From Sedimentisphaerales bacterium (GTDB taxonomy: Bacteria > Planctomycetota > Phycisphaerae > Sedimentisphaerales > SM23-30), in assembly GCA_016930855.1 (NCBI GenBank), contig JAFGFX010000108.1, positions 1 through 43,878 on the forward strand: a DNA stretch of 43,878 nucleotides. The letters are read 5' to 3'. The notes beneath the pieces are model-generated. The model saw only the letters and a list, made by a program, of their open reading frames with translations. It searched no databases and was not told the DNA's origin. Made by a program: the position numbers and the translations under genes. Shown here piece by piece: positions 11,295-35,936 of the stretch. The first letter of the stretch is position 1, and every line of letters starts with the position of its first letter.

Positions 11295-12608
11295 TCAGGC
11301 CTTGACGATCTTGGCGCGGCCGCGCTTGACGTTGGCGGTGGCGTTGCGGGTATCAATCACCAGCCGGGCGTTCTGGACGATCCAGTTGAAATCGTAGCTG
11401 CTGTGGTCGGTGCTGATCAGCACGGCATCGTAGCCCTTGAGCATCTTCTCGGACAGGGGCTTGCTTTTCATCCGCAGGTCGTAGCGGCGCTGCTTGTGGG
11501 TCTGGGGGATGTAGGGATCGTTGTAGTCCACCTGGGCGCCGTGCTCGCGCAGGACGTCGATCAACTCGATGGAGGGCGATTCGCGGACGTCGTCGATGTC
11601 CTTCTTGTAGGCCAGGCCCAGCACCAGGATGCGGGCGCCGCTCAGGGCCTTCTTGCGGTCGCTCAGGGCCCGCAGGAGCTTGCCGACGACCAGGTAGGGC
11701 ATCTGGACGTTGATCTCGCCGGCCAGCTCGATAAAGCGGGTGGGCATGTGGTATTGCCGGGCCTTCCAGGTCAGGTAGAACGGATCGATGGGGATGCAGT
11801 GCCCGCCCAGGCCCGGGCCGGGATAGAACGGCTGGAAGCCGAAAGGCTTGGTGCCGGCCGCCCGGATGACCTCCCAGACATCGATCCCCATGCGGTCGAA
11901 GACCACCTTGAGCTCGTTGACCATGGCGATATTCACGCAGCGGTAGACGTTTTCGACGATCTTGGCCGCCTCGGCGATCTCGCAGGAATCGACCGCCACG
12001 ACCTTCTCGATCGCGATCTCGTACAGGCGAACGGCCCGTTCCAGGCTGGCCGGATTGAGCCCGCCGACCACCTTGGGAATGGATCGGGTCTCGAAGTTCT
12101 TGTTGCCCGGGTCCTCCCGTTCGGGGGAATAGGCCATGAAGAAATCCCTGCCGGCCTTCAGGCCGGAGGTCTCCAGGATGGGCAGCATCAACTCGCGGGT
12201 GGTCCCGGGATAGGTGGTGCTCTCCAGCACCACCATCTGGCCGGCGCGCAGATAGCGGGCCACCGTACGACAGGTGGATTCGACATACTGCATGTCGGGC
12301 TCGCGGTTCTCGGTCAGGGGGGTGGGCACGCAGATCAGGATGGCCTGCACCTGGCTCAAGCGCCGCATGGCGGTGGTGGCCTCAAAGCGCCCCGAATCGA
12401 CCATCTCCTTTATCTGGGCGCTGCGGATATGGCGTATGGGGCTCTGGCCGCGGTTGAGCTTGCGGACCAGCTGCTCGTTGATATCGAATCCCAGGATCCG
12501 GGCGCCGCCGTCCCAGAAGGCCCGCGCCAGCGGCAGGCCGACGTATCCCATGCCCACGATGCCGACCCGGCCGGAGGCGGCGGAGGCTCTCGATGGTGAT
12601 CGTTTCAT
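11295..12608 (-). CDS. Nucleotide-sugar 6-dehydrogenase (UDP-GlcNAc/ManNAc type)
   Basis: The 437-residue cytoplasmic NAD-dependent enzyme oxidises C6 of a UDP-sugar to a uronic acid for polysaccharide synthesis. The Rossmann motif is GIVGMGYVGLP (17-27). The catalytic Cys is Cys271 in GLGGHCIPIDPFYLTWKA, and the C-terminal domain carries LVLGLAYKKDIDDVRESPS. The PFYLTWKA and AYSPEREDPGN segments fit WbpA/WecC-type enzymes acting on N-acetylhexosamines better than plain UDP-glucose dehydrogenase. Its ATG overlaps the stop codon of the BY-kinase gene by four bases (ATGA), indicating translational coupling. Confidence 0.93.
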   Translation of the reverse strand: MKRSPSRASAASGRVGIVGMGYVGLPLARAFWDGGARILGFDINEQLVRKLNRGQSPIRHIRSAQIKEMVDSGRFEATTAMRRLSQVQAILICVPTPLTENREPDMQYVESTCRTVARYLRAGQMVVLESTTYPGTTRELMLPILETSGLKAGRDFFMAYSPEREDPGNKNFETRSIPKVVGGLNPASLERAVRLYEIAIEKVVAVDSCEIAEAAKIVENVYRCVNIAMVNELKVVFDRMGIDVWEVIRAAGTKPFGFQPFYPGPGLGGHCIPIDPFYLTWKARQYHMPTRFIELAGEINVQMPYLVVGKLLRALSDRKKALSGARILVLGLAYKKDIDDVRESPSIELIDVLREHGAQVDYNDPYIPQTHKQRRYDLRMKSKPLSEKMLKGYDAVLISTDHSSYDFNWIVQNARLVIDTRNATANVKRGRAKIVKA

Positions 12609-14869
12609 GATTGTTCCTTGGCCTGGGGTAACGCCCCGACCGGTTTCCGTTCGGCGGGGGAGCTGATATAGTCATAGTAGTTACGATAGGATTCGCGGAA
12701 GTACCCTCCCTTTTGCGGCCGGACGGCGTTGAGAACGGCGCCCAGGATGTGGACCTTGTCGGTCTTCATTTCCCGAATCATGCGGCCGACGATCCCGCGG
12801 GAGGTGTTGCCGGCATGGATGACCAGGATGGTGCCGTCGGCCAGGCCGGCGAGAATGCGGGCGTCGGACAGCAGCAGGGCCGGCGGGCCGTCGATGATGA
12901 TGTGATCGTAATAGGCCCGCTGGCTTTCCAGGAAGCTCTTCATCCGTTCGCTGCTCAGGAGGACCGCCGGGTTGGGCGGCGTCGGCCCGGCGTCGATCAC
13001 GTCGAGGCCCTCGATGCCGCTGGGCCGGATGACGTCGGCGGCGGTCGCCTGGCCGACGAGCACGTTGCTCAGGCCGCGCGGCGGGCCCTCGGCCGGAAAG
13101 AGCCGGTTGATCGCCGAGCGGCGGAAATTGGCGTCCGCCAGCAGGACGCGCTTGCCCTCGGCGGCGAAGGTCACCGCCAGATTCACGGCCGTGGTGGTCT
13201 TGCCGCAGCCGCGGCCGCTGCTGGTGATCAGGATCTGCTTGAGCTCGTCCGGCGGCGCGCTGAAATACAGGTTGGTGCGGACCTGCCGGTAGGATTCGCT
13301 CATCAGGGACTGGGGGTGGATCGTCGCCATCTTGGCGATCTCCGCCCGCTCGCGATCCTCGCCGTCGTATTCGGGGATCATGCCCAAAAACGGCACCTGC
13401 AGATAGCGCAGCACATCGCTGGGGGATTTGATGTTGTCGTCGAGAAATTCCAGCAGGAACACCAGGCCGACCGCCAGGAACAGACCCAGGAGGAATCCGC
13501 CGGGCAGAAACAGCGACCAGCGGGGGAAACTGATCACGTCGTTCTGGGTGCCGTACGTGATCTGTTCCTGCACCTCATTGACCTTGTCCAGCGTGATGCT
13601 CTTGGAGTTGATCCGTTCCTCGATCCGGATGGCGCTGCGCAGGAGATCCTCGATTTCCTGCTGAATGGTCAGGTGGCGGCTGCGTTTTTCGTCCAGATCG
13701 CTCTGGCGGGCGGAGATCTGGTCGTACTGCCGGCTGGCCTCCTCGTACTGCTGCTGGAGGGATTGCAGGCGATTATTAAGGGACCGGCGTTCCGCCGCGG
13801 CGTACTGCTGACGGAGCAACTGTTCCCGTTCGGCCATCTGCTGGTTGAGGCTGGTCATGATGACCTGGATCTGCTGGACGGTCTGGTGATCGTCCCCGAG
13901 CCGCTTGGACATGCCGTCGAGACTGGTTTGATAGTTGAGGATCTGGCTGCGATATCCCATCACCAGGGGATCGGCCTCGATGGCGGCCTGGACGGTGGTG
14001 GAATAGCCCTGGGTTTCCTGCTCCTGTTGCAGCTGGGCGATCCGGATCTGGAGGTCCTTCATCTGGGCGTCAAGCAGCATCTTTTCCCGGTGCATCATGG
14101 ACAATTCCTGCTGCACGACGTTCTGGTCCGATCCCCAGCCGGGCACATTGGCCTGCACCCGCAGGGTGTTCTGGGCCTGTCGCTTCTCGAGAACCTCTGT
14201 ATCGATTTTACCTTTTTCCTTGCGCAGCGACTGGAGATCCTTGTTCAGCTTATCGGTCGATTGGGCCAGTTTTTTCAGGCGAAAGACCTCGAGGATCTCG
14301 TCGAGGAGGCTTTTGGCTTCCTTGGGATTGCCGGCGGTCATGCCGACCAGGACGTATTCCGTGCCGCGCTGGGCCCGGGCGACGAAGTCCTTCTTCAGGG
14401 CCGCCAGGCGGACCTGGATATCGGGATACTGCGCGGCCCACTGGGTGTTCTGGACGGCATCGCGCTTGAGGACCTCCCCGAGAAAGGCGTCGCTGGTCAG
14501 GTAGGCCACCTGGTTGGCCGTCTCCAGGGCGACCAGGTCGCGGTTGGGCACGGGATCGAAGCCGCGCAGGATATCCTCCTGGACCGGGCTCTTGCACTTG
14601 ATCATGCCGACGGAGGAATACTGCGGCCGGTATTTGCGCAACACGAAACACAGCACGCCGGCGCCGAGGGAAAACACCAACGTGATCAGCACGATCAGCC
14701 ACAGCCGGCGGCGGAGCGTCCGGACGATATCCCGGAAGGTGAACCCCGTCCCGGCGGATGACCCGGCGGTCGCCGGCCCGCGTCGCACCATGATTGCACC
14801 ACTGCCCGCTGCTGGTAAAGATATCTGTCTAGTCACAATTGGTTCCTCACACTCTATCGGTTCTGTCAC
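12605..14869 (-). CDS. Wzc-like polysaccharide co-polymerase / BY-kinase
   Basis: The 754-residue inner-membrane protein joins a Wzz chain-length domain to a bacterial tyrosine kinase. Membrane segments lie at about 56-77 and 455-478, with a long periplasmic coiled coil between. The cytoplasmic kinase has Walker A TSSGRGCGKTTTAVNLA (about 549-565), Walker A' VLLADANFRR (second acid replaced by Asn; the usual form is DADLRR) and Walker B HIIIDGPP. The C-terminal tyrosine cluster has five Tyr between 723 and 734 (GGYFRESYRNYYDY), the autophosphorylation tail of Wzc proteins. It controls polymer length and export together with the SLBB lipoprotein encoded upstream. The gene lies 18 bp after the TPR gene. 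Confidence 0.92.
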   Translation of the reverse strand: MTEPIECEEPIVTRQISLPAAGSGAIMVRRGPATAGSSAGTGFTFRDIVRTLRRRLWLIVLITLVFSLGAGVLCFVLRKYRPQYSSVGMIKCKSPVQEDILRGFDPVPNRDLVALETANQVAYLTSDAFLGEVLKRDAVQNTQWAAQYPDIQVRLAALKKDFVARAQRGTEYVLVGMTAGNPKEAKSLLDEILEVFRLKKLAQSTDKLNKDLQSLRKEKGKIDTEVLEKRQAQNTLRVQANVPGWGSDQNVVQQELSMMHREKMLLDAQMKDLQIRIAQLQQEQETQGYSTTVQAAIEADPLVMGYRSQILNYQTSLDGMSKRLGDDHQTVQQIQVIMTSLNQQMAEREQLLRQQYAAAERRSLNNRLQSLQQQYEEASRQYDQISARQSDLDEKRSRHLTIQQEIEDLLRSAIRIEERINSKSITLDKVNEVQEQITYGTQNDVISFPRWSLFLPGGFLLGLFLAVGLVFLLEFLDDNIKSPSDVLRYLQVPFLGMIPEYDGEDRERAEIAKMATIHPQSLMSESYRQVRTNLYFSAPPDELKQILITSSGRGCGKTTTAVNLAVTFAAEGKRVLLADANFRRSAINRLFPAEGPPRGLSNVLVGQATAADVIRPSGIEGLDVIDAGPTPPNPAVLLSSERMKSFLESQRAYYDHIIIDGPPALLLSDARILAGLADGTILVIHAGNTSRGIVGRMIREMKTDKVHILGAVLNAVRPQKGGYFRESYRNYYDYISSPAERKPVGALPQAKEQS

Positions 14870-14887
14870 AGGTAACCGTCTAGCCGA

Positions 14888-17800
14888 TTATGGTTTCAAT
14901 TCCTCCAACGCCTGGAGGAGTTTGGGCTTGAGGGTTTCCTCCTCGACGGAGGCCTGGCCGCTCTCGAGGAGATTCAAGGCCAATCGGAACTGCTCCCGGG
15001 CATCGTCGCCGCGCTGCTGGCCCTGCAGGGCCTGGCCGAGATGATAGTACATGCCGACCGGCACGGGATTGCCCTGCCGCTGTTTCTGCTGGATGGCCCG
15101 GCGCAGGATGAGATCCGCCTTCCGGAAGGATTCCGGCGTGTTCCCGCGCAGCAAGGTGACGGCGTAGGTATCCATGATGTCCGGCTCGCCGGGCGCCAGT
15201 TGGAAGGCCTTCTCGGCCAGGGCGGCCGCATCGGCCTGCCGGTCGGGCCGGTCCATCAGCAGATAGGCCAGATTGTTCAGGATCGAGACATTCTCCGGCT
15301 GGCGCTCCAGCAGGCGCTGGTAGCTGTCGAGCGCCTGATCCGGCAGGTTGTTCTGCAGATAGGCCTCCGCCAGCATCTGGTCGATCAGGAACAGCAGATC
15401 GTCATCCTGCGTAAGCTTGCGGGCCGATTCCAGATTCCGGATCTGCTCGGCGTAGTTCCGGTTGAGCTGCTGCAGACGCGCCAGGGCCCGCCGGAAGATC
15501 ACCGAATCGGGCTGCTCCTTCAGCTTCTTCTCGGCCCAGGCGATCATCTCGTCGACGGCGCCGATGCCGGTGATTTGCAGCAACACCAACTCGGACGTGC
15601 GGACCTGATCCTGCACCCGCAGCAACGTCCGCTCGTACATGTCGATGGCCTGGCTTCGTTCGCCCAGGGCGAAGGACGCCTCGGCCATCACCAGCGTCAA
15701 GCCGGGAAAATCGGCATGCAGTTTCAGGTCTTCCTGGGCCAGGGCCAGGGCCTTCTGCAAATGCTCCCGGGCCGGTGCGGTCTGCCGCAGCTGCAGAAAA
15801 TGGCGCCCCAGCCGGACCTCGGCCGCCATCCAGCCCAGGCGCAGGGGATTGACCCGGTCCGGGGGATAGGAACTCATGGCGGCCGCTTTTTGCCACAGCG
15901 CGACCGCCTTTTCGAGGTACTGCGTCGCCAGGCGCGGGCGATTGAGCTTTCGCTGCTCATCCCCGCGGCGCCGGGCCACCCGGGCGGCCTCCACGTGCAG
16001 GCGGATCGAGTCGGGCGAACGCTCCAGGGCCTGGTCATACAGGGCCTCCAGCCGGTCCAGGCGGCCGTCCTGATCGAGACGATCCATCAGTTGGCTGCGG
16101 ATCAACTCGGACTGCGGATTGTCGCGCCAGGCCATTTCCAACTCCTGGATGGCCTCGGCCCGCCGGCCCTGTTCCCAATAGACCTGGGAAAGCTCCGCCC
16201 GCCCCATGTCGCTGGTGGCGGGCAGCTGGCGCCGCAACTGCAAAAGGATCTGCTCGGCCGGGGAATACTTGCGATCGTAGAACAGGGCCTTGGCCTTGAG
16301 CAGCAGCGCCCGGGGATGATCGGGATGGTTCTGGAGCACCTGATCGGCGTAGGCGGCCGCGGCCACGTACTGGGCCTTGAACAGCTCGATGTTGCCGGCG
16401 ATCAAGGGGATATGCTCGTAGGACGGGAACTTGCTCTTCAGCTCGGCGAGCAGTTTCTCGGCGTCTTCCACCCGGCCCGCCTCCAGCAGATAGACCAATT
16501 CCTGGCTGATCAGATCGGGATCGTCCTGGTGGCCGCGCAGCTTCTGGAGGACGGCCAGGGCCTCATCCAGCTGGCGCTGCTTGACCAGCAGGCCGGCCAA
16601 AAAGAGCGAGGCGGCCCGATGGAATTCATCCTGCTGCAAGATGGCCTGGTATTGCTCCAGGGCCTGCGGGTAGAGCTCGGGATCTTCCTGGTACATCTGG
16701 GCCAGACGCAGGCGGGCCTGGATCTGGGCGTCGCCGCTGGATTCGGCAACCATGTTCTGGAGCATCTGTTCGGCATTCTGCTCCCGGCCGGTGGTTTCCA
16801 GGAACCTGGCGTAGGACACGGCCAGCTCCGTGGACTGCGGGTTGGCCTGGAGGGCCTGGCGGAACACGGATTCCGCCCGCCGCAGGCTTTCCTGGCGCTG
16901 GGCGGAATCGGACGTCATTTCGGCATACTGATAGATGATGTTCGCCAGGGCCTGCCAGTTTTGCGGGCGGCTGGGATACAGGGCGATCAGGCGGTGGCAG
17001 GCGTTTTCGGCGATCTGCTGGGCCTGCTGCATCTGCTGAACGATCTTTTCCCGATCCTCTGGGGATAGGCCGCCGGCCGGTTCCTCGAGCTGGGCCTTCC
17101 ACAGGCCGATCCACAACGGATAATACACCACCTGCATCGAGAGGGCCTCGACGTCGTCGGGCTGAAGCAGCAGGATCCGGTTGGTCAGTTGGATCTGTTC
17201 GTAGATTTGGCCGTGGCTCAGGCTCTCCCAGCCGGATTTCCGGGCCGTCTCCTGGTTGCGCTGATGCTGCAGGGCCAGGAGCATCCGCATGGCGCCGCCG
17301 TGATTCAAATCCTGCTGGTAGGCGGTCCGGGCCTGGGCCAGCGCCTCCTCGGTGCGATTCTGGGCCTGATAAACGTGCGCCAGACTGAGATGCCCCGTGA
17401 CGGACACGGGCCGCTGCCGTAAAAACTGCACCAGACTGTCGGCCGATTCGATCCACTGCTGGTGTTCCGCATGGAGCAGGCCCTGGCACAGCAGGGCGTT
17501 GGTCGGATCGAGGGATTTGAGCTGGGCGAGAAGCGCATCGGCCCGGGCGTAGTCCTTGAGGCGCAGGGCGATATCGAAGAGCCCCCGCACGCTTTCGGCG
17601 CCTTGGGGATCCTGCCGCTGGGCCGCCTCGAAGAGCTGCGACGCTTTCTGCCAATAGCGCTGCGCGGTCTCGGCGTCGCCCTGGACCACCGACCAGTCGG
17701 CCAGGCGAAAGTAGTGCTGGGCCATCTCGAGATCCCGCCGCTGGGGCGGGCTGGTGCGGCGTATGGACTCCTCGACGATCTGATTCATGCGGTCCGGCGG

Positions 17801-19927
17801 GATGGCATTGGGATCCGGCTCATCCAGCATAAGCTGCATCTGGACAAAGTACCGGTTCTGCCCGTCGGCCTGGACGGCCCGGGCGATGATCTGCCGGGCC
17901 GGTTCCAGGACGGCCTTGTTGGCGCGGCCCTCTTCAAGATAATACTGCACCAGCGACCGAACCAGCGGTTCGGCGGCCGGCTGTTCCCGGACGATCGCCT
18001 CCAGGGCCTTGACGCGCTGCTGGACCTCGGGCAGGGCCTGGGCCCGCAAGAGGCGCAGGGACTCGTCCGGGGCCTCCAGCGTCTGGAGGATCTCCTGGGC
18101 CTCCGCGCGGCGATCCAGATTGATCAGCAACTCGGCCCGGACCTGCTGGACCCGGGACCGGTAGCGATACGCGTTGCCCATCTGCTCCTCGAAGCGTTCG
18201 ATCCACCCCAGGATCTGCCGCTGGAGCAACCGGCTGGAGACGCGGGCGGCCGCCTGGAGGAAATCGACGAAGTCCTTTTCCCGGCCTTCCACCGGCTGGA
18301 GGGCCACCTCGCCGTAGTGCAGGCCGTAGCTGTAATGTTCCGTCTCCCGCAGGACGCGGAACAGCTTCATCCGCAAATCCCGATCGATGTGGTTTTCCGC
18401 CGAGAGGGCCTCATCGGCGCGATACAAACGCCGGATCGCCTCCTCGGTGCGGCCCCGGGCCCAGGCGATCTGGCCGGCGGCGATCTGGCTGTAGGGATTC
18501 TGATCGCCGATGGTCTCGCTCAACCGGCCGGACAAATGCTCCGCTTCCGTCAGATACGATTCTTTCTTCTGGTCGTCCGTCTCCCGCAGGGCCAGTTCGG
18601 TGCAGACCTGGATCAGGCGGCGCATGATGCTCAGACGGGTGTTCTGCCGTATCATGGATTCCGGCCCGCCCATTTGCAGGAAGGACCAGTCGTACAATCC
18701 CCGCCGCAGGATCGTATACGCGCTGTGCCAGTCCTCCATCCCGTCCTGGCCGTACTGGTTATCCGCCCGCAGCCAATAGAGATTGCCCACGTCGAGAAAC
18801 CAGGCCGTGTCGATCTCGGGGGTCGCCAGGGCCTGGTGAAAGCAGTCAATCAACTGCTGATAGACCTTCGGATCGTAGCCCTCCAGGCGCAGCAGGCGGG
18901 CCTTGAGGGCGTAGAACTGCCCGCGCTGGGGGAACATCGCGATGCATCGATCCAATTCCCGCAGGATCGGATCCAGAACCGTTCGGGCCTCCCGGCGCTT
19001 CTGGCTACGGATCGTCGGATCGACGATGGCGGCGGCGGCGGTGTAGGCCTGCTGCACCCGGCCCAGCAGGACCAGCTCAAAGAGATTCTCGTAGGCCTGG
19101 GGGTCCTGCGGATTGGCTTCGATGGCCTGCCGCAGGACGGTCTCCGCCTGGGCGGCGGCGGCGGTCAGGGCCTCGGGGGTGTTCTTGTCGCCGGCCGGCA
19201 GAAAGGCCCGATAGGCCCGCAGATAACAGCCCGCCACGCTGTTCGGGTCGAGTTGGAGGGCCTTGTCGACCAATGCGTCGGCCTCGGCGAGCTGCTCCTT
19301 CTCGTTGGGGCTGGAGCCGGCGTCCACCAGCTTCATGAGGGCATGGGCATCGAGTTCGTAGCCGTAGGGATCGTCCGGGGCCAGCTGGATCAGCTGCTCG
19401 GCGCGGCTGCGGACCTGGGCCCACACGGTCGGCCATTGCGAACGGGGGCTGTTCTTGGCCAGCTCGTAATCGTACTGGGCCAGATGGCGGCGGGCGTACA
19501 GGTTCGGGGACTGCTGCTTGACCATGGCCTCCCAGTACTGCTTGGCGCCTTCAAACAACTGGGCCTCGATATAGAGCTCGGCCAGCTCCTGTATCGCCTG
19601 CATGCGGAGGGCAAAGTCCCCCCGGGAATAGTTCACGGCGGAGGTCAGGGCGTCGCGGGCCTCCATCCATTTCTTCAGGGATCCCTGGTCGCGCGATTCC
19701 ATCAAGGTCTTGTACGCCGCTTCCGGATCGGTCAGGGCGGCGGCCTGGTCCCGCTCCTCGGCCGCCAGGCGGCGGCCCTCCTCGACCAGCCGGTGCGCCT
19801 CATCCATGAAGGGCTTGGGATCCTTGAAGCGGTACTTCAGAAACAAGATGGTGCCGATGACGACGATCGCCATTGCCACCAGGGACAGCGTGGCGAGCAT
19901 CTTTTTATTCAAGCGCTTTTGAGCCAT
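14888..19927 (-). CDS. Giant membrane-anchored TPR protein of the exosortase operon
   Basis: The protein has about 1,679 residues with one N-terminal membrane segment (LATLSLVAMAIVVIGTILFL) after a basic MAQKRLNKK start, so the rest probably faces the periplasm. The remainder is helical TPR-type repeats throughout; typical units include QALDSYQRLLERQPENVSIL and AEQILLQLRRQLPATSDM. PEP-CTERM/exosortase loci often contain a large TPR protein (PrsT-like, roughly 900 residues), and this one is nearly twice that length. TPR arrays usually scaffold protein assembly, and here an export/exosortase complex is a plausible client. An ATG six codons earlier (19945) is possible, but GGGAG precedes 19927 and gives a cleaner signal anchor. 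It sits between the EpsI-like and BY-kinase genes. Confidence 0.85.
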   Translation of the reverse strand: MAQKRLNKKMLATLSLVAMAIVVIGTILFLKYRFKDPKPFMDEAHRLVEEGRRLAAEERDQAAALTDPEAAYKTLMESRDQGSLKKWMEARDALTSAVNYSRGDFALRMQAIQELAELYIEAQLFEGAKQYWEAMVKQQSPNLYARRHLAQYDYELAKNSPRSQWPTVWAQVRSRAEQLIQLAPDDPYGYELDAHALMKLVDAGSSPNEKEQLAEADALVDKALQLDPNSVAGCYLRAYRAFLPAGDKNTPEALTAAAAQAETVLRQAIEANPQDPQAYENLFELVLLGRVQQAYTAAAAIVDPTIRSQKRREARTVLDPILRELDRCIAMFPQRGQFYALKARLLRLEGYDPKVYQQLIDCFHQALATPEIDTAWFLDVGNLYWLRADNQYGQDGMEDWHSAYTILRRGLYDWSFLQMGGPESMIRQNTRLSIMRRLIQVCTELALRETDDQKKESYLTEAEHLSGRLSETIGDQNPYSQIAAGQIAWARGRTEEAIRRLYRADEALSAENHIDRDLRMKLFRVLRETEHYSYGLHYGEVALQPVEGREKDFVDFLQAAARVSSRLLQRQILGWIERFEEQMGNAYRYRSRVQQVRAELLINLDRRAEAQEILQTLEAPDESLRLLRAQALPEVQQRVKALEAIVREQPAAEPLVRSLVQYYLEEGRANKAVLEPARQIIARAVQADGQNRYFVQMQLMLDEPDPNAIPPDRMNQIVEESIRRTSPPQRRDLEMAQHYFRLADWSVVQGDAETAQRYWQKASQLFEAAQRQDPQGAESVRGLFDIALRLKDYARADALLAQLKSLDPTNALLCQGLLHAEHQQWIESADSLVQFLRQRPVSVTGHLSLAHVYQAQNRTEEALAQARTAYQQDLNHGGAMRMLLALQHQRNQETARKSGWESLSHGQIYEQIQLTNRILLLQPDDVEALSMQVVYYPLWIGLWKAQLEEPAGGLSPEDREKIVQQMQQAQQIAENACHRLIALYPSRPQNWQALANIIYQYAEMTSDSAQRQESLRRAESVFRQALQANPQSTELAVSYARFLETTGREQNAEQMLQNMVAESSGDAQIQARLRLAQMYQEDPELYPQALEQYQAILQQDEFHRAASLFLAGLLVKQRQLDEALAVLQKLRGHQDDPDLISQELVYLLEAGRVEDAEKLLAELKSKFPSYEHIPLIAGNIELFKAQYVAAAAYADQVLQNHPDHPRALLLKAKALFYDRKYSPAEQILLQLRRQLPATSDMGRAELSQVYWEQGRRAEAIQELEMAWRDNPQSELIRSQLMDRLDQDGRLDRLEALYDQALERSPDSIRLHVEAARVARRRGDEQRKLNRPRLATQYLEKAVALWQKAAAMSSYPPDRVNPLRLGWMAAEVRLGRHFLQLRQTAPAREHLQKALALAQEDLKLHADFPGLTLVMAEASFALGERSQAIDMYERTLLRVQDQVRTSELVLLQITGIGAVDEMIAWAEKKLKEQPDSVIFRRALARLQQLNRNYAEQIRNLESARKLTQDDDLLFLIDQMLAEAYLQNNLPDQALDSYQRLLERQPENVSILNNLAYLLMDRPDRQADAAALAEKAFQLAPGEPDIMDTYAVTLLRGNTPESFRKADLILRRAIQQKQRQGNPVPVGMYYHLGQALQGQQRGDDAREQFRLALNLLESGQASVEEETLKPKLLQALEELKP

Positions 19928-20066
19928 GTGCTTGGCATCTCCCATCTTGACTCAGGATATCGTCCGATAACGACGCTCTCTCCGAGCGGTACAAGGTTTC
20001 TCTCACTCCGGGCGAAACCGGCCGGGATCTTCCGGCCGGCCGCACCCGCGGCGCGCCGCCGGCCGG

Positions 20067-20861
20067 TCAGGAGCCCCGGGTGGCCTTTGCCCAATCCGGC
20101 CAGTGCTGCGTTTTGAGCACGGGAATGACCCGGCGGCACAACTTCTCCAAGGCCCGCAGGGTTTCGGCCGCCGACATCTCGTGTCCCCGTTCGAAGGTGA
20201 CCTCGACCTTGCTGAAATACGCATAGCGATGCCGCCAGTTGTTCTGCTTGATGCGGACCTCGGTCCGGGTGCAGGCGTAATCGCCGTTCACCGAGAAAAA
20301 GTAGCTCACGATGCGGTTCGACTTGGCCAGCATCGTTCCCGGCAGCTTGATGGTGAGCATCCGGATGGGGATCGAGATCAATCGCCCGTCCGGGTTGTCC
20401 TGGGGAACCTGGATCGAATACTGCTGCTTGTGCTCGACGATCCCGCCGCTGCCCACGTAGCACCAGTCCGGCACGTGCGGCACCTTGTCGGGATTGCCCG
20501 TGTAATAGGACACAAACAGGGTGGCGAACCGGGCGGGGTGATCCTCGGGGACCTCCGGATCCTCCAGGTGCCACCAGATGTACTCGTCGGTGCCCAGGGA
20601 CGCCGCGATCTCCGGATTGTCGATCTTCTCGCGGCCCACCACCCGATAGGGTACGATCTGCCGCACGTCCAGAGCGTCCAGCGGCCTCTGCAGCGGCAGC
20701 GGCAATTTGCGAAAATGCCACTGCAGCTTTTGGGCTCCCACGCGCAGCGTCCCGGCCCCGACCGCCAGGATCAGCGTGCAGATCACAAACGCCGGCTCGC
20801 GGCACAGTCTCGCCAAAGGATGCAGCACGTAGTGTTTCATGACGGTATTCTTACGACGCAT
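20067..20861 (-). CDS. Exosortase-associated EpsI-like protein (DUF3485)
   Basis: The 264-residue protein has one N-terminal membrane segment (about 25-42) and a periplasmic domain. The DKVPHVPDWCYVGSGG segment corresponds to the H-x-P-x-x-C-Y-x-G-x-G motif of the EpsI/DUF3485 family, which is found next to or fused to exosortases. Its biochemical role is unknown in the literature as I know it; a partner role in protein sorting or exopolysaccharide export is assumed from context. The gene overlaps the exosortase end by 11 bp, so the two are translationally linked. A later ATG (MKHYVLHPLARL, 20840) could be the real start. Confidence 0.8.
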   Translation of the reverse strand: MRRKNTVMKHYVLHPLARLCREPAFVICTLILAVGAGTLRVGAQKLQWHFRKLPLPLQRPLDALDVRQIVPYRVVGREKIDNPEIAASLGTDEYIWWHLEDPEVPEDHPARFATLFVSYYTGNPDKVPHVPDWCYVGSGGIVEHKQQYSIQVPQDNPDGRLISIPIRMLTIKLPGTMLAKSNRIVSYFFSVNGDYACTRTEVRIKQNNWRHRYAYFSKVEVTFERGHEMSAAETLRALEKLCRRVIPVLKTQHWPDWAKATRGS

Positions 20862-21840
20862 GGTTCTTGGCGCCGGGGACCAGGATGCCGGCGGCCTCCC
20901 GGTCCTCTTCGGTGAACAAACGGTTCATGATCCAGGCCAGCAGGCCGTACAGGCCGAAGGCCACGCCCAGCATGGCCAGGCCCAGCAGCATGTGCGGGGT
21001 GCCGCTGCTGATCTCCCGGCCCAGATAGATATGGAACACGCCGGTCAAAAAGACCCGCAGCATGTTGCAGAACACGGCGATGGGCACGGTGCTGGCCAGC
21101 AGAACCAGACGATGGCTCCAGTGCCGCTGTTCGAGATACGCCATGGCCACGCCCAGGGCCACGAAGGTCCGCAGCAGCCGCATGCCGCTGCAGGCCTCGG
21201 CCACGTCCAGGCTGAAACTCTCGCTGGCGCCCCGGACCAGATGGGTCCCGTGGATCACCACGCCCTCGGTGGCGACCTGGACGCCCGGCAGGCCGTTCAG
21301 GATCACGGCGGCGACCACGGCCGCCATCTTCCGCAGCGGCATGGCGATCTCCCAGTGCAGGCGGGTGGGCAGCGGCAGGGCGAACACCAGAAACACCACC
21401 GGCAGCCACAGGTGACGAATCAGCTGCCATCCCCCCAAAAACAACACCACGCCCAGCAGCACCCCGATCATGGCCAACTGCCGGGGATAACTAAAGCCGT
21501 GGAAAAACCAGTACACGTACCAGAGCAGGCTCAACACGATGACCGCCAGGCCCCAATAGCTGGGCAGGCTTTTCAGCCGGCGCAGGGCGTGGCGCTCCTG
21601 GTAGATAAAATAGAGACTGAAGGCCGGGATCAGCAGACCGTGCGATTCCTGGGGATCCCGCCAGCGTTCCAGCAGCGAGAGCAATTCCTCGCGAAACAGC
21701 AGGAAGAACAGCACGGCGGTGACGCCGATCTTCCAGGTGCGGTCGACGGCAGAATCCGCCGCCGGCAGCGTCTGCGCCGCGCCGCACGCCTGGTTGGCCG
21801 GGCAGAGGGAATCCTTTGCTGATATCGGTTTATTCGTCAT
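20851..21840 (-). CDS. Exosortase (EpsH/Xrt family)
   Basis: The 329-residue polytopic membrane cysteine transpeptidase-like enzyme would cleave C-terminal sorting tags (PEP-CTERM-like) from secreted proteins. All three proposed catalytic residues are present: Cys217 in EACSGMRLL, Arg262 in CNMLRVFLTG and His283 in GTPHMLLG. About eight hydrophobic helices surround them, and the early QESHGLLIPAFSLYFI segment is also typical (HG.L.P). The DUF3485 partner is a separate gene rather than a fusion. No protein with a recognisable C-terminal tag (short motif, helix, basic end) is encoded in this window, so substrates must lie elsewhere. It is second in the minus-strand operon after the export lipoprotein. 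Confidence 0.92.
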   Translation of the reverse strand: MTNKPISAKDSLCPANQACGAAQTLPAADSAVDRTWKIGVTAVLFFLLFREELLSLLERWRDPQESHGLLIPAFSLYFIYQERHALRRLKSLPSYWGLAVIVLSLLWYVYWFFHGFSYPRQLAMIGVLLGVVLFLGGWQLIRHLWLPVVFLVFALPLPTRLHWEIAMPLRKMAAVVAAVILNGLPGVQVATEGVVIHGTHLVRGASESFSLDVAEACSGMRLLRTFVALGVAMAYLEQRHWSHRLVLLASTVPIAVFCNMLRVFLTGVFHIYLGREISSGTPHMLLGLAMLGVAFGLYGLLAWIMNRLFTEEDREAAGILVPGAKNHAS

Positions 21841-22164: not shown

Positions 22165-23847
22165 TCAATGGCCAAAATCCACATCCGCAAAATTTCGATC
22201 GTACACGAATCCGAACCCGTAGGTGCTTCGGAAACTCTGCCGCAGCACGGCGAGCCAGCGCGCCACCGGGTGGGAGCCGACGTTGATGATATCATTGGGC
22301 TTGACGAACAGGTCGGGCGCGGTGCCGGCAAACAACTTGTCCAGATTGACCAAATAGGTCACTTCCTTGTTCTCGCCGATCCGGCGGATGATCTCACAAC
22401 GGCTCGGCCAGGCCAGCGCGCTGAGCGGGCCGGCCGTGGCGATGGCCTGTTTGAGGGTCAGCCGCTGGCCGACCAGGCTGTAGGCACCCGGCCGCGAGAC
22501 CTGGCCCATCACCGAGTAAATCCCCGTGGAGTTGTAGGGGACCTGGATGTCGTCGCCGGGCAGGATCACGACGTTTTGGGAGAAATCGCCCCCCCGCAGT
22601 CGTCTCAAATCCACCCGAATGACCTCCTGCTGCCAGAAGGCCGCCATCCGGTCATCCTCCCAGCCGACATATCCTCCGGGCGGCTGGGGGGGTCCGGCCG
22701 GCAGGGCGAAGGCGGATGAATCCATCTCCGGCAGCAGGCTCGACGCCTGGCCCTCGGCCGTCAGGCCCGCCGCCTCGACCGGTTCGACCCCTTCCGGGGG
22801 TACCAGCGTATAGTGATCGCCCTGGCGCACGACGCGCCAATCCCCCAGGGACGCCCCCTCCCCGGCCGGCGGATCGACGGCGGCGGCGGCAAGGCTCGAT
22901 CGGGCAGCCTGCTGGAGAAACCGGCTGGCCGAGGCCGGCGAGACGACATGGAACGTTGCCGGCAGGGAACCGCCGCCCAAGACGGACGCTGGAGAGGGCA
23001 ACACCGTCATGGGGGTGATGCTCTCGATCAATTCCTCCTGTTCTGTACGAGGCGGCTGGGTAGGCGGCGTGGGCGGCGTGGGTTCCTCGGCGGGCGGCGC
23101 CGGGACCGGTTCGATAATCTGCGGCGTCACCGGCGTCACCGCGGCCGGCGGGCCGGCGGGAGGAACCTTGCGGGCCGGCTCGGCTGTCGGCCGTCTCCAG
23201 ATCTGCTCGGCGGGCGTCGGTTGATCGGCCGCGGCGGCGGCCGATGGCGTCCGGATGATATAGGCATAGTCGGCATTGATCTGCGGGATTCCCCCGGCGC
23301 TGGCCAGGGCGTTCGAGATCCGATAATCGTTTTCGTTCAACATATAGGGCCCCGGCGCCGAAATCGCTCCGGAGACCGTATAGACCTTTTTGCGGGGGCC
23401 GCTGACCAGGACCGTGACGGTGGGATCCTTGAGCAGGCGGGGGCTCAAAAGCTGCTTGATGGTCTCGGTCAGCTCCAGTTCGGTCTTGCCGTTGGCCCGG
23501 AAGGTGCCGATCTCCGGGATGGTGATCCGCCCGGTCTCGCTCACCTGGCGGCGGCCGACCCATTCCTGGCCCGGCCCGAACAATTCATACACCGAGATGT
23601 CCAGGACGTCCCCCGGTCCGATCACGTACTCGGTCTCGTCGGGCATCAGATCGCGCGGCTGGGGTTCCCGGGCGATGGCGAACGGAGAAGACTCCTCATC
23701 CACCACACCGAGCTCGTCCAGAATGATATTCGTGATCGGCACGGCCCGAAACCGGCCGATCGTGTCCGGTCCGTCGCAGCCGGCCCACGTCATACCGAGC
23801 AACATCACCGCCCAGATCCATCGGATCGCATGTTTTGCCTGGAACAT
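22165..23847 (-). CDS. Polysaccharide export SLBB lipoprotein (Wza-like)
   Basis: The 560-residue protein starts at the ATG at 23847, giving MFQAKHAIRWIWAVMLLGMTWAGC, a signal peptide ending in a lipobox-like Cys (Cys24, though -3 is Trp). The open frame extends upstream to 24171 without such sense. The Poly_export domain (YVIGPGDVLDISVYELFG and on) is followed by an SLBB segment (YTVSGAISAPGPYML). After a long Pro/Ala-rich linker with no obvious fold (about 220-400), a second SLBB repeat follows (YSVMGQVSRPGAYSLVGQRL). Such proteins form the outer-membrane or periplasmic export channel for exopolysaccharide. The linker makes it longer than the usual 180-400 residues. It is the first gene of the operon. 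Confidence 0.9.
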   Translation of the reverse strand: MFQAKHAIRWIWAVMLLGMTWAGCDGPDTIGRFRAVPITNIILDELGVVDEESSPFAIAREPQPRDLMPDETEYVIGPGDVLDISVYELFGPGQEWVGRRQVSETGRITIPEIGTFRANGKTELELTETIKQLLSPRLLKDPTVTVLVSGPRKKVYTVSGAISAPGPYMLNENDYRISNALASAGGIPQINADYAYIIRTPSAAAAADQPTPAEQIWRRPTAEPARKVPPAGPPAAVTPVTPQIIEPVPAPPAEEPTPPTPPTQPPRTEQEELIESITPMTVLPSPASVLGGGSLPATFHVVSPASASRFLQQAARSSLAAAAVDPPAGEGASLGDWRVVRQGDHYTLVPPEGVEPVEAAGLTAEGQASSLLPEMDSSAFALPAGPPQPPGGYVGWEDDRMAAFWQQEVIRVDLRRLRGGDFSQNVVILPGDDIQVPYNSTGIYSVMGQVSRPGAYSLVGQRLTLKQAIATAGPLSALAWPSRCEIIRRIGENKEVTYLVNLDKLFAGTAPDLFVKPNDIINVGSHPVARWLAVLRQSFRSTYGFGFVYDRNFADVDFGH

Positions 23848-24187
23848 CGAGCTATCCCTTTCTAAGGGGGACGGATTCAAACGGCATACCGATTGCCGCC
23901 CTCTACCTGGATATCCAAGAAACCTCCCCGCGGATCGATCCCCACGGAGACGACACCCTGCAGAAACAATCCCTCCACGGGAACGGAAGATACAGGATTT
24001 CTCTCTCTTTTCGACTCTCAGTCGGCCTGAATTCCTTGCGGACTCCGCGGTGCGCCTCGATCCTCTTTTTTTGGGGATGATTCCCTTCGGACCGAAAACG
24101 CACCGGGCTGACAACCCCGCCCGCCGACGCGCCAAGCGGCCTGGCGGCGTCGCGCGAAACGGTGCTGTCATACGGCCTTAATTCACT

Positions 24188-24807: not shown

Positions 24808-25560
24808 ATGAAAATCATCATTGTGGGCGCAGGCGGTCATGGTCGGGTGGTCCTGGACATCCTTAAAAGGAACCACCAGTTCGAGGTCAAGGGATTTCTC
24901 GATTCGGACCCGGCCCTGCACCGGAACCGCATTGACGGCGTCGAGGTCCTGGGCGATCTGAGCCTGATCCCCCGCTTCGGCGCCCTGGGCATCAGCGGGG
25001 CCGTCATCGCCATCGGGGACAACCGCATCCGCCAGATGTACGCCGAAACCCTCGAGAGGGCCGGGATCGGGCTGGTCAGCGCCATCCACCCCTGGGCCAG
25101 TATCGCCGATACGGCCCGCATCGGGAAAAACGTCGTAATCTGTGCCGGTGTAAATGTTTGCGCTCACACCTGCATCGAGGATTCCGTCATACTCAACACC
25201 GGCTGCATCATCGATCACGAGAGCCACATCGGCCCGGCGGCGCACATCTGTCCGGGCGTGCGGATGGCCGGTCACGTCTCGATCAATCCGGCGGCCTTTG
25301 TCGGTATCGGCGCCACGGTGATCCAGAACGTCACCATCGGCGAGGCCGCCGTCGTCGGGGCCGGCGCCGTGGTGATCAAGGACGTACCCGCCTACACCAC
25401 CGTCGTGGGGGTGCCGGCCCATATCGTCAAGCAGAGTCATATCCCCGTCAGCCTGACCGAGCGAAACGGCGAATTGGACCTGGGGCCCTGTAGGCCGCTG
25501 ATCACCCGTCCCCGGCGCCGCCGGCCCGTGCCCATCCAGGAAGCGGTCCTGCAGCCGTAA
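24808..25560 (+). CDS. PglD/NeuD-like sugar O/N-acyltransferase
   Basis: The 250-residue acetyltransferase starts at the ATG at 24808, because the family begins exactly with MKIIIVGAGGHGRVVLDIL. An upstream extension of the open frame to 24235 has no family sense. The N-terminal nucleotide-sugar-binding domain is followed by a left-handed beta-helix of hexapeptide repeats (HPWASIADTARIGKNVVICAG). His137 in IIDHESHIG corresponds to the catalytic His of PglD. The C-terminal 35 residues are an Arg/Pro-rich extension. Such enzymes acetylate amino-sugars, for instance in bacillosamine or sialic-acid pathways. It is probably monocistronic and divergent from the polysaccharide operon. Confidence 0.88.
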   Translation: MKIIIVGAGGHGRVVLDILKRNHQFEVKGFLDSDPALHRNRIDGVEVLGDLSLIPRFGALGISGAVIAIGDNRIRQMYAETLERAGIGLVSAIHPWASIADTARIGKNVVICAGVNVCAHTCIEDSVILNTGCIIDHESHIGPAAHICPGVRMAGHVSINPAAFVGIGATVIQNVTIGEAAVVGAGAVVIKDVPAYTTVVGVPAHIVKQSHIPVSLTERNGELDLGPCRPLITRPRRRRPVPIQEAVLQP

Positions 25561-25806: not shown

Positions 25807-27084
25807 ATGAGAGCTCAATCGTCAGGAATTGCGCGGCCGGTGCGTATCGCCTGGGCCCTGACGATCGTGGCCGTGACCGCCGTGATATCGGCCGGCTGCG
25901 AAAAACACCGCTGGTACAGCCGGGCCGGATACGTTACCCAAGAGAATCCCCCGCCCGGCGGCTTTTGCCATGATCCGACCTGGCTGATCTTCTTTAAGAC
26001 CACCTATTTTTATCCGGTCCGCGACTGGTTCGACCTGGAATGGCAACAGGCCAGACTCCGCGGGCAAGGCGTCCCGGCCAAGAATCTGACCGCCGACGGC
26101 CGGGTGCCCGATTCCAGTTTCTTTGTCATCCGGCCGATCCGGGATGTCCCCCCGACGGTGCTGGCGCGGGGTCCCAACCAGGGGCCGGATCCGGCCGGGC
26201 CCTGGAAAATCATCAAGCGAAAAAAGCGGGGGGTCTCCCGGGGCTTTATCGGTTCGGACGGCCAGGGCCGAACCTATCTGGTCAAGCTCGATAACCGGGC
26301 ATACCCGCAATTGGCCAGCGGCGCCGAGGTGATCGCGGCGAAGATCTACTGGGCCCTGGGCTATAACGTGCCGCCGACGTACGTGGTCACCATCAGCGGC
26401 ACGGGCGACAGCCGGTTCGACGGCCGGCGGGCCCTGGCCTCTCGCTTGGTCGCCGGCAAGGTGATGGGGAATTTCAAATTCAACTGGGTGCGGGACCGGC
26501 GGGAATTCCGGGCCCTGCGACTGGCCGCCGCCTGGCTGAATGACACGGATCGGGCCGACCAGAACCTGCTGGCGGCGCTCGACGAGGGCCGGTACCTCTT
26601 TTATCTGGTCGACTTCAACGGATCACTCGGCAGCTACCGTCATGGCATCGCCAAGGAGCCCTGGATCGGCTGTCGCTACGCCTGGGACGTGGAAAGGCAG
26701 TTGACCGGTCTTCTGCGTCTTGTGACACTGGGTCTGATTCAAGAAGCCGGCTGCCGGCACAGCGAGATCCTTGCCTCGCCGACGCTGGGATACCTTCCCG
26801 GCGGATTCGATCCGGCCCGCTGGCGGCCGGAAACGCCCAATCCGGCCTTCGATCGCATGACCCGGCGGGATGCGGCCTGGATGGCGGACCGGATCGCCGC
26901 CTTTAGTGCCGAACAGATCGAGACGATCGTGGCCGAGGCCCGCCTGGACGATCCGGCCGACGCCCGGCGGCTGGTCGAGGTGCTGCGAGGCCGCCAGCGG
27001 GCGATAGTCCAGCGGTACGGCCAAACGGCCGACACGGCCGGCACGGCTGTCACGGCCGGCACGGCTGATGCGACTTACCCCTGA
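25807..27084 (+). CDS. Lipoprotein with atypical protein-kinase-like fold
   Basis: The 425-residue protein has a signal peptide ending in the lipobox VISAGC (Cys31), so it should be anchored outside the cytoplasm. The central part carries residues in the order of HipA/PI3K/Fam20-like kinases: Lys160 in TYLVKLDN (nucleotide lysine), Glu174 in SGAEVIAAKIYWALGYNVPP (helix C), NDTDRADQN (245-253) as a catalytic-loop-like segment with Asp246/248 and Asn253, and YLVDFNGSLG (267-275) with Asp269 as the metal-binding acid, DFN replacing DFG. I do not know a named family. The function is unproven, and ATP supply outside the cytoplasm is a problem. The last 20 residues are the translated 9-bp minisatellite (TADTAGTAVTAG). 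Confidence 0.75.
   Translation: MRAQSSGIARPVRIAWALTIVAVTAVISAGCEKHRWYSRAGYVTQENPPPGGFCHDPTWLIFFKTTYFYPVRDWFDLEWQQARLRGQGVPAKNLTADGRVPDSSFFVIRPIRDVPPTVLARGPNQGPDPAGPWKIIKRKKRGVSRGFIGSDGQGRTYLVKLDNRAYPQLASGAEVIAAKIYWALGYNVPPTYVVTISGTGDSRFDGRRALASRLVAGKVMGNFKFNWVRDRREFRALRLAAAWLNDTDRADQNLLAALDEGRYLFYLVDFNGSLGSYRHGIAKEPWIGCRYAWDVERQLTGLLRLVTLGLIQEAGCRHSEILASPTLGYLPGGFDPARWRPETPNPAFDRMTRRDAAWMADRIAAFSAEQIETIVAEARLDDPADARRLVEVLRGRQRAIVQRYGQTADTAGTAVTAGTADATYP
27017..27069 (+). repeat. 9-bp minisatellite inside gene 3' end, about 6 units
   Basis: Units ACGGCCGAC, ACGGCCGGC, ACGGCTGTC, ACGGCCGGC and ACGGCTGAT follow one another after a partial unit. The consensus is the same as at 5027-5127, 22 kb away. 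Here the array is translated as Thr-Ala-x triplets at the C-terminus of the kinase-like lipoprotein. Confidence 0.85.
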
Positions 27085-28421: not shown

Positions 28422-30434
28422 ATGCATACATCCAAATCAAGTGCCTGGATTGCAGCCGTTTTGATTCTCCTGGCCGCCTCGGCCGAGGCCCTCGGCCAAC
28501 CGGCGGACGAATCCGTACGGCCCTGGTCGCCGCGAGAGGGCCTTTCCCGGCCCGCAGCCGAGCCGGCCCGCCAGGTCGCCGGCAATCCCGCGGCCCCGGC
28601 CGACGCAGGACCGGCCGGCGATACGGCGAGCCCCCCGGCGCCGGCCCCCTTCGACCGCCAGCGGTACATCGATATCGACGAGATCCGGCCCGGGATGCGG
28701 GGCTACGGCCTGACCGTCTTCCAGGGCGCTCAGCCGGAGCGCTTCGAGGTGGAAGCCGTCTCGGTGGTGCACAATTTTCTACCCAAAATCAACATCCTCC
28801 TGGTTCGCTGCCTGGACGACCGGCACAAATTCTCCAATCCGGTCGGCGGCGACAGCGGCTCGCCGGTGTTCTTCGACGGGCGGCTGGCGGGCGCGTTGGC
28901 CTACGGGTGGAGCTTCACCAAAGAGCCGCTCTACGGCATGACCCCCATCCGGTACATGTTGCAGGTAAAGGGAAAACCGGCCGGCCCCGGCGGTCAGGCT
29001 TCGCCCGCCGCACGGACTGGCCTGCTCGAGCGCGAGGTCTATCGCGACCTGCTGCGCGATGAACTGCTGAGCCGGCAGCAGCGCGTCCGGCTCTTTCGGG
29101 CCACCGGCCTGATGGATCGGTTTTCCCGGCCGGCGGCCAACGGCTGGTGCAGCCTGCCGCTGGCCCTGTCGGTGGGGGGATTCAGCCCCCAGGCCATCGA
29201 GAAACTGGCCCAGTGGATGCCGGGATATCATCTGGAAATGGCCGGCGGCGGCGCCGGCGACGCGGCCGGTCACGAAGCGGCCGAGGCCGCCGGGCCGATC
29301 GACCTGCAGCCCGGTTCGGTCCTGACGATCCCTGTCGTCTCCGGCGACATGAGCATGCGGGTGATCGGCACGGTCACCGAGGTCGTCGGCGATCGGGTGT
29401 ACGGCTTCGGCCATCCCTTCAACGCCGAGGGCGAGACGACCTGGCCCCTGGCCGGCGGCGTCGTGCACACCGTCGTCAACAAAACTGACCGCTCCTTCAA
29501 GCTGGGCGAATCCACCCGGATCATCGGGGCGATTTACGCGGACGAAACACCGGCCGTGTTCGGCCGGATCGGTTCCGAGGCGCCCCTGCTGCCCATCGAA
29601 TTGCAGGTCCATTGGGACCGGGAACCCTCCCCGGACATCTTCCACCTGCAGATGGCCCAGCACGACATCCTGAACCCGACGCTGGTGGCCAGCAGCATCG
29701 TCAACGCCCTGACGCAGCGCCAGGAACTGCCGCCGGAAAACACCCTGGAGTATCAGGTCGATCTGGCCTTCGACGGCGCCGGTTCGCTGCGGTTCGATGA
29801 CGTCATCTCCGGCGAATACGGCTGGAGCGACATGGTTAACGAGGTGTTCAGCGTCACCGCGCTCATGCTGGAAAACCCCTGGCAGAAGGTCAAGCTGGCC
29901 GGCGTCCGCGTCCAGGTCCGCATCGGCACGAATGACACCCTGGCCCCGATCAAGTCGATCCAGTTGAACCGGGCCCTCTATCAACCGGGCGATACGATCC
30001 AGGCCCGCCTGGTATGCGAACGGCTGCGGCTGCCGGAGGAAACGATCACCATGCAGATGAAGCTGCCGGAGGACCTGCCGGCCGGCAAATACAAGCTGGC
30101 GGTCGGATCGGAGCTGCTGCACCGGCGTCAATTGCAATCGGCCCACCCCCAGCGCTACATGGCCTTTCGGGGCGATGACATCCAGCGGATCCTGCAGGAG
30201 CGGCTTACCATCTCCCGCCGGAAGGTGTACATGAGTCTGATCGTGCCGCGGATGGGCGTGGCCCTGGCCGATGAGCGGTTCGTCGAGATACCGACGAGCA
30301 AGGCGATGCTGCTGACGGATCCCTCCCGGAACCTGGAGACGTCGCTCATCCGGCCGATCGTCGAGGCCAGCGTCGAAACCTCCCGCGTCATCACGGGCGG
30401 CAAACTGCTGGATATCGAAATCCGCCGGGACTGA
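28422..30434 (+). CDS. SpoIVB-like S55 peptidase domain protein
   Basis: The 670-residue exported protein starts at the ATG at 28422, with GAGG 7 nt upstream. A signal peptide covers about residues 1-25 (AVLILLAASAEALG), followed by a Pro/Ala-rich linker. The S55 domain begins at DIDEIRPGMRGYGLTVFQG and contains the serine motif GGDSGSPVFFDGRLAGALAYG (Ser146), after which YGMTPI is also typical of SpoIVB relatives. His117 in VVHNF may be the catalytic His. The remaining 450 residues include a VYGFGHPFNAEGETTWPLAGG segment, seen in long non-sporulation S55 proteins, and beta-rich domains. SpoIVB itself is a sporulation signalling protease; this bacterium is not expected to sporulate, so the role is probably envelope proteolysis, substrate unknown. 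Confidence 0.85.
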   Translation: MHTSKSSAWIAAVLILLAASAEALGQPADESVRPWSPREGLSRPAAEPARQVAGNPAAPADAGPAGDTASPPAPAPFDRQRYIDIDEIRPGMRGYGLTVFQGAQPERFEVEAVSVVHNFLPKINILLVRCLDDRHKFSNPVGGDSGSPVFFDGRLAGALAYGWSFTKEPLYGMTPIRYMLQVKGKPAGPGGQASPAARTGLLEREVYRDLLRDELLSRQQRVRLFRATGLMDRFSRPAANGWCSLPLALSVGGFSPQAIEKLAQWMPGYHLEMAGGGAGDAAGHEAAEAAGPIDLQPGSVLTIPVVSGDMSMRVIGTVTEVVGDRVYGFGHPFNAEGETTWPLAGGVVHTVVNKTDRSFKLGESTRIIGAIYADETPAVFGRIGSEAPLLPIELQVHWDREPSPDIFHLQMAQHDILNPTLVASSIVNALTQRQELPPENTLEYQVDLAFDGAGSLRFDDVISGEYGWSDMVNEVFSVTALMLENPWQKVKLAGVRVQVRIGTNDTLAPIKSIQLNRALYQPGDTIQARLVCERLRLPEETITMQMKLPEDLPAGKYKLAVGSELLHRRQLQSAHPQRYMAFRGDDIQRILQERLTISRRKVYMSLIVPRMGVALADERFVEIPTSKAMLLTDPSRNLETSLIRPIVEASVETSRVITGGKLLDIEIRRD

Positions 30435-31067: not shown

Positions 31068-31880
31068 ATGGATCGAATCGGTTTTATGGGCGGCGGAAAG
31101 ATGGCCGCCGCGCTGCTGAACGCCCTCTTGAAGGCCCAAGTCGCCTCGCCGGACCATCTGCTTTGCAGCGATGTCCAAGGCCAACGGCTGGACGAGTTGA
31201 AGCGCCGGCTGGGCATTCGCACCACGGCCGACAACCGGCAGGTCCTGACCGAATCGGATATCGTGTTCCTGGCATTCAAGCCGCAGAACTTTCCGGCGGC
31301 CCTCGAGGGCCTCGGACCCCTGGTACGGCCGAACCAGTTGATCGTATCGATCCTGGCCGGTGTCCGAATCGGGCGGATCCGCCGGCATCTGCCCGGCCGG
31401 GTGGTGCGGGTCATGCCGAACACCGCCTGTTTGATTGGCCAGATGGCGGCCGGCTACGCAACCGGGCCGGAGGTGGACGACGACGACCGGATTCGCCTGC
31501 GCCGCATCCTGGACAGCGCCGGAACGGCGGTCGAGGTCGAGGAAGACCTGCTGGACGCCGTCACCGGCCTGAGCGGCTCCGGGCCCGCCTTCGTCGCCTA
31601 TCTGATCGACTGCTTCTGCCGGGCGGGCACGGCCGCCGGATTGAGCCAAGCCGACGCCCGGGCGCTTACCCTGAAAACCTTTGCCGGAACCGCCCAACTG
31701 CTCGACGAGTTGTCGCTTTCCGCCGGGGATCTGATCGAGATGGTGACCTCGCCGGGCGGGACCACGCAGGCGGGCCGGGACATCCTGGAATCCTCCGACG
31801 CCGCCCGCATCCTGCGGGAGACGATCCGGCGGGCGACCGAGCGGAGCCGGGAATTGGGACGATCGTCCGAAGATGAATAA
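31068..31880 (+). CDS. proC: Pyrroline-5-carboxylate reductase
   Basis: The 270-residue cytoplasmic enzyme catalyses the last step of proline synthesis, reducing pyrroline-5-carboxylate with NAD(P)H. The Rossmann motif IGFMGGGKMAAALL is at the N-terminus, followed by FLAFKPQNF, VRVMPNTACLIG, the active-site region LSGSGPAFVAYLID and the signature EMVTSPGGTTQAG. Length is standard. GGGAGG lies 6 nt before the ATG. The gene overlaps the next by 8 bp. Confidence 0.95.
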   Translation: MDRIGFMGGGKMAAALLNALLKAQVASPDHLLCSDVQGQRLDELKRRLGIRTTADNRQVLTESDIVFLAFKPQNFPAALEGLGPLVRPNQLIVSILAGVRIGRIRRHLPGRVVRVMPNTACLIGQMAAGYATGPEVDDDDRIRLRRILDSAGTAVEVEEDLLDAVTGLSGSGPAFVAYLIDCFCRAGTAAGLSQADARALTLKTFAGTAQLLDELSLSAGDLIEMVTSPGGTTQAGRDILESSDAARILRETIRRATERSRELGRSSEDE

Positions 31881-35921: not shown

Positions 35922-35936
35922 AATTAGGAGAAAGCC

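Follow-up and report, generated by a model that had tools for sequence, protein, structure and literature searches.

One open reading frame in the window, the whole stretch of 43,878 nucleotides from a Sedimentisphaerales bacterium that was analysed (contig JAFGFX010000108.1), probably encodes an extracytoplasmic, lipid-anchored HipA-like kinase acting on the cell envelope, a reading to which a probability of about 0.62 is assigned. Most of what is known of HipA-like kinases concerns cytoplasmic toxins, and very few bacterial kinases working outside the cytoplasm are known to us. Through a conserved branch of lipoproteins whose catalytic set is intact, HipA-like kinases would extend to the envelope, and the testable question would arise of which phosphate donor is available there. 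HipA-like kinases themselves are not new, and the novelty is best called their move to the cell envelope. No description of the lipoprotein kinase family was found in the open-access papers searched. The genome containing the window has 3.9 Mb, and its close relatives in the genome collection searched are metagenome-assembled genomes (MAGs) of Sedimentisphaerales/Planctomycetota. The features of the gene and its neighbours are collected in Table 1.

Table 1. Features of the candidate kinase gene and its neighbourhood (window coordinates; fractions refer to the 18-member family alignment)
Feature	Position	Strand	Remarks
Candidate exported HipA-like kinase ORF	25807..27084	+	425 aa; 17 homologues collected
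Predicted signal peptide, lipobox I-S-A-G-Cys31 at its end	25807..25899	+	hydrophobic segment, invariant Gly30-Cys31
Gly-rich (nucleotide) loop G142-V-S-R-G-F-I-G-S-D151	26230..26259	+	around model strands 134-138 and 146-150
Lys160, putative ATP-binding lysine, strand 156-161	26284..26286	+	18/18; aligns with the HipA_2 VVKF lysine
Glu174, candidate alpha-C glutamate	26326..26328	+	not conserved
R231-R-E-F-R235, start of the helix preceding the catalytic loop	26497..26511	+	R231, R232, E233, R235 18/18
Catalytic loop N245-D-T-D248-R-A-D-Q-N253	26539..26565	+	D248, N253 18/18; N245 17/18
Putative metal-binding D269-F-N	26611..26619	+	D269 18/18, F270 17/18; after model strand 262-267
C-terminal helices of the C-lobe, residues 346-404	26842..27018	+	high confidence in model
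NeuD/PglD-type sugar acetyltransferase, upstream	24808..25560	+	TIGR03570, E 3.5e-63
SLBB polysaccharide-export protein, divergent neighbour	22165..24171	-	Poly_export, E 1e-17; homologues L025, L026, L027
Exosortase	20851..21840	-	TIGR02602, above cut-off; homologues L025-L027
Rest of the exopolysaccharide/exosortase locus	11295..20861	-	conserved protein in EpsI position, PrsT-like TPR protein, polysaccharide tyrosine autokinase, nucleotide-sugar dehydrogenase

The cysteine that the original prediction had taken for a lipobox residue lies where it was placed, and in the family alignment (18 sequences, the window protein plus 17; L040 is a contig-end fragment) the Gly-Cys pair is present in every member, 15 of which satisfy a PROSITE-like lipobox pattern. 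The only strongly hydrophobic stretch of the protein spans residues ~11-32, with no second transmembrane stretch, so that the family carries the predicted signal peptide, lipobox and invariant cysteine of bacterial lipoproteins. The protein would be exported, lipidated on Cys31 and anchored through it, perhaps in the outer membrane, since the residue following the cysteine is Glu and not Asp, according to an E. coli +2 rule that may not hold for Planctomycetota. HipA-like sequence and fold would also fit a HipA-type toxin of the usual cytoplasmic kind, with only an apparent signal peptide, but this is very improbable in view of the universal Gly-Cys, the hydrophobic stretch ahead of it and the ~100 residues that separate the lipid site from the kinase core in every member. 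Furthermore, no HipB/HipS-type antitoxin gene was found next to it in the window, where its neighbours encode NeuD and RNase III, nor was any conserved small neighbour gene found in the relatives. The HipA and HipT toxins of hipBA and hipBST share the kinase core motifs, but the lipoprotein signal and the missing antitoxin neighbour set the window protein apart from them, and neither HipA_C nor the HipA N-terminal domain of Pfam was matched.

Lys160, the loop at 245-253 and Asp269 in a DFN triplet had all been named beforehand and were found in place, the loop reading NDTDRADQN. Lys160, Asp248, Asn253 and Asp269, the Lys/Asp/Asn/Asp set of the protein-kinase-like (PKL) superfamily, are invariant across all 18 members, down to 38% identity; Asn271 is kept in 16, and Asp162, Trp243 and Tyr266 are likewise invariant. 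In the Gly-rich loop, Asp151 is universal, Gly142 and Phe147 are each found in 17 members, and Ser or Thr occupies position 144 in 14, as near the same loop in HipA and HipT (PMC8262856). The five-residue spacing between Asp248 and Asn253 is that between D166 and N171 of PKA. The other PKA reference residues are the lysine K72, the alpha-C glutamate E91 and the metal-binding D184, D166 being the catalytic aspartate. Since they are invariant in 18 sequences, Lys160, the catalytic loop and the DFN aspartate are taken as real and constrained. The gene is under purifying selection, with dN/dS of 0.15-0.22 in three pairs, and together with the invariant set this makes the residue pattern more than chance.

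Glu174, proposed along with the lysine and the aspartates as part of the kinase signature, is present in the window protein but did not withstand comparison with the homologues: the position holds Glu in seven members, Asp in one and Ser, Thr or Val in the other ten. This glutamate is not universal in the superfamily, and an ion-pair glutamate is likewise not identifiable in the predicted kinase-like families Lani_1194 and Lcin_0519 (PMC9758233). A non-acidic residue here in more than half of the members is what an exported pseudokinase would lead one to expect, in which the fold would serve to bind or scaffold a nucleotide, a polysaccharide or a partner protein and would transfer no phosphate. 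Such proteins exist in the secretory pathway, Fam20A being an example (PMC5413348). A non-catalytic scaffold would not need the four catalytic residues, yet these are invariant over wide divergence in a gene held under purifying selection, which makes a pseudokinase unlikely.

A two-lobed kinase fold was obtained by AlphaFold2 from the 18-sequence alignment (pLDDT 86.5, pTM 0.86), superseding a weak first model (pLDDT 58) built on five sequences before 13 more homologues were in hand. The elements follow the standard kinase order, beta1-beta2-beta3 (bearing Lys160)-alphaC-beta4-beta5-alphaE-catalytic loop-beta-beta-DFN-helices. All of the best 50 matches listed by Foldseek against the PDB are kinase-like folds, led by the HipA-family kinase CtkA (E 1.1e-4, TM-score 0.52 on the target), with PI4KII-alpha within the top six; CK1, PknG and Rio2 are also listed, together with one chain from a pre-40S particle that is presumably a Rio kinase. 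Extra N-terminal and inserted parts of the protein keep its TM-scores on the query length low (0.2-0.4). The structural comparison suggested at the outset was thus borne out in a kinase fold, although no PDB chain was convincingly matched by sequence.

Which branch of the superfamily is involved was indicated by sequence profiles. The only recurrent Pfam match is HipA_2 (PF20613), found in seven of the 18 members and always below threshold; the window protein scores 20.1 bits (E 4e-4) against a curated cut-off of 27 bits. PHROG 3162, by contrast a profile that reaches 17 of the 18 members, matches the window protein over residues 134-276 (E 7.8e-7). This PHROG is listed with unknown function and is nameless in the library; proteins annotated as HipA family kinases match it at 6.5e-22 and 4e-28, which identifies it as the HipA_2 family. 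When the family was aligned by hhalign with five HipA_2 proteins, a score of 50 was obtained, with Lys160, the catalytic loop and Asp269 set against their counterparts, while 60 column permutations gave at most 26.5 and the reversed alignment 13. In scans of the window's whole genome with HipA_2 and with phrog_3162, the best match was in both cases the gene described here. The Fam20C and CotH families of Pfam gave no match in the 18 members at E values up to 1, and no PADLOC defence family was matched. The original prediction had grouped HipA-, PI3K- and Fam20-type kinases without naming a family: its HipA-like component is supported and PI4KII-alpha stands among the nearest folds, whereas Fam20 and CotH are not closest, and the family can be placed in the HipA-like kinase branch.

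Comparison with known kinases marks out this branch. By sequence the closest are the HipA_2 proteins, whose Gly-rich loop, VVK lysine, DR-containing catalytic loop and downstream aspartate all align; those compared have ~250 aa and no lipobox, and three annotated ones adjoin DUF3037 genes, whereas the lipoprotein family has ~400 aa, ~100 extra N-terminal residues and a Pfam score short of the cut-off. The nearest solved fold among the matches listed is CtkA, a Ser/Thr kinase of Helicobacter pylori with 13% identity, which is served by a type IV system instead of a lipoprotein signal. CtkA also acts outside the bacterium, and the Tfs3 type IV system is needed for its host-cell activity (PMC5536186). 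Fam20 (Golgi casein kinase and xylosylkinase) and CotH are alike in principle, being atypical kinases that work outside the cytosol, but they share no sequence match with this bacterial lipoprotein; a Golgi casein kinase stood at rank 6 with the weaker model, and Fam20 is absent from the best 50 with the better one. The HipA phylogeny used for comparison is that of PMC8262856, and the survey of atypical Legionella kinases that of PMC9758233.

The 17 homologues, with 38-52% identity, come nearly all from the class Phycisphaerae. A protein search of 59 genomes yielded three full homologues in the window's bacterial family (50-55% identity) and one shortened gene. A profile built from the same-family homologues reached one genome of another class (L008), and a profile including it gave strong matches in 13 more Phycisphaerae genomes. 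The family is patchy, with strong matches in 15 of the 397 genomes of the class search, the window's own included, and outside Phycisphaerae the phylum samples gave the L008 genome only. This range is a lower bound, because the broad-profile search stopped at Phycisphaerae and the phylum samples; similar uncharacterised exported proteins presumably occur in Acidobacteriota. No relatives were found in viral contigs, and searches of plasmids and phages returned only weak similarities to HipA-family or phage structural proteins. A degenerate DNA pattern for a VPDSSF motif had no match in 392 genomes because it was too strict, missing even the window's own gene. Weak genome matches (L042-L046, L051-L054; E about 0.01-0.05) were set aside, since those read by eye seem unrelated or short: L043 is glycosyltransferase-like, L044 signal-peptide-peptidase-like and L051 macroglobulin-like, and L042 and L045 are short open frames.

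The gene of one relative (G007:C158; L025 1245-1956, minus strand) keeps both ends and lacks the catalytic core (~residues 126-288), with a frame change; decay and contig misassembly are both possible, and the contig bears 2.3x coverage in its name. Two phage structural proteins from the tblastn search (H11, H12) matched neither phrog_3162 nor Pfam kinases; by hhalign, one of the two is similar to the kinase domain, which is no more than a side lead. A fragment of a Yersinia phage particle-associated protein (L069, 3701-4900), annotated as an ADP-ribosyltransferase toxin, resembles the kinase domain (hhalign E 1.2e-5) and matched no PHROG or Pfam family; several fold matches in BFVD are likewise large phage proteins.

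Based on the conserved residues and the fold, a mechanism is proposed in which residues ~130-405 would fold into the two lobes of a HipA-like kinase domain. The nucleotide phosphates would be held by Lys160 and the Gly-rich loop, Asp248 would be the base in catalysis, Asn253 would coordinate the metal, Asp269 of the DFN would bind Mg or Mn, and phosphate would be passed to an envelope substrate. The main difficulty of this mechanism is ATP, which the periplasm is generally thought to lack. A kinase-fold transferase of other chemistry, such as AMPylation as in SelO or the use of a non-ATP donor available outside the cytoplasm, would ease this difficulty, and other chemistries are known for the kinase fold; the unusual invariant Asp162, two residues past the lysine, and the replacement of DFG by DFN also fit it. 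Yet the K/D/N/D residues align with their equivalents in HipA-like kinases and no direct evidence favours another chemistry, which is therefore considered quite unlikely. The expected lack of periplasmic ATP also speaks for a pseudokinase, and it leaves some weight both to that reading and to one of other chemistry.

For the extracytoplasmic kinase, a first substrate hypothesis is offered by the gene neighbourhood. In the window, as in the four other loci of its Sedimentisphaerales family, the kinase gene follows the NeuD-type gene in the same orientation. Divergent neighbours, in the window as in those three of the four loci that reach far enough, are the SLBB export protein and the exosortase. 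In this bacterial family, the substrate would most plausibly lie within the adjoining exopolysaccharide/exosortase pathway. An exopolysaccharide role for the whole kinase family was rejected: elsewhere in Phycisphaerae the gene stands beside unrelated and varied genes, so that the link is not general. More tentatively, lipid-anchored kinases phosphorylating exopolysaccharide or surface proteins from an extracytoplasmic donor may parallel in bacteria the Fam20/POMK kinases of the secretory pathway, having arisen independently out of HipA-like kinases.

Further along the plus strand of the window, a 670-aa protein (28422-30434) is weakly SpoIVB peptidase S55-like (NCBIfam E 3e-4, below cut-off), and a 368-aa protein (31873-32979) carries a CPBP/Rce1-like protease domain at its C-terminal end (Pfam E 9e-15), with a weak MrtJ match. 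Two large tandem proteins with right-handed beta-helix repeats are encoded at 33822-39137 on the same strand.
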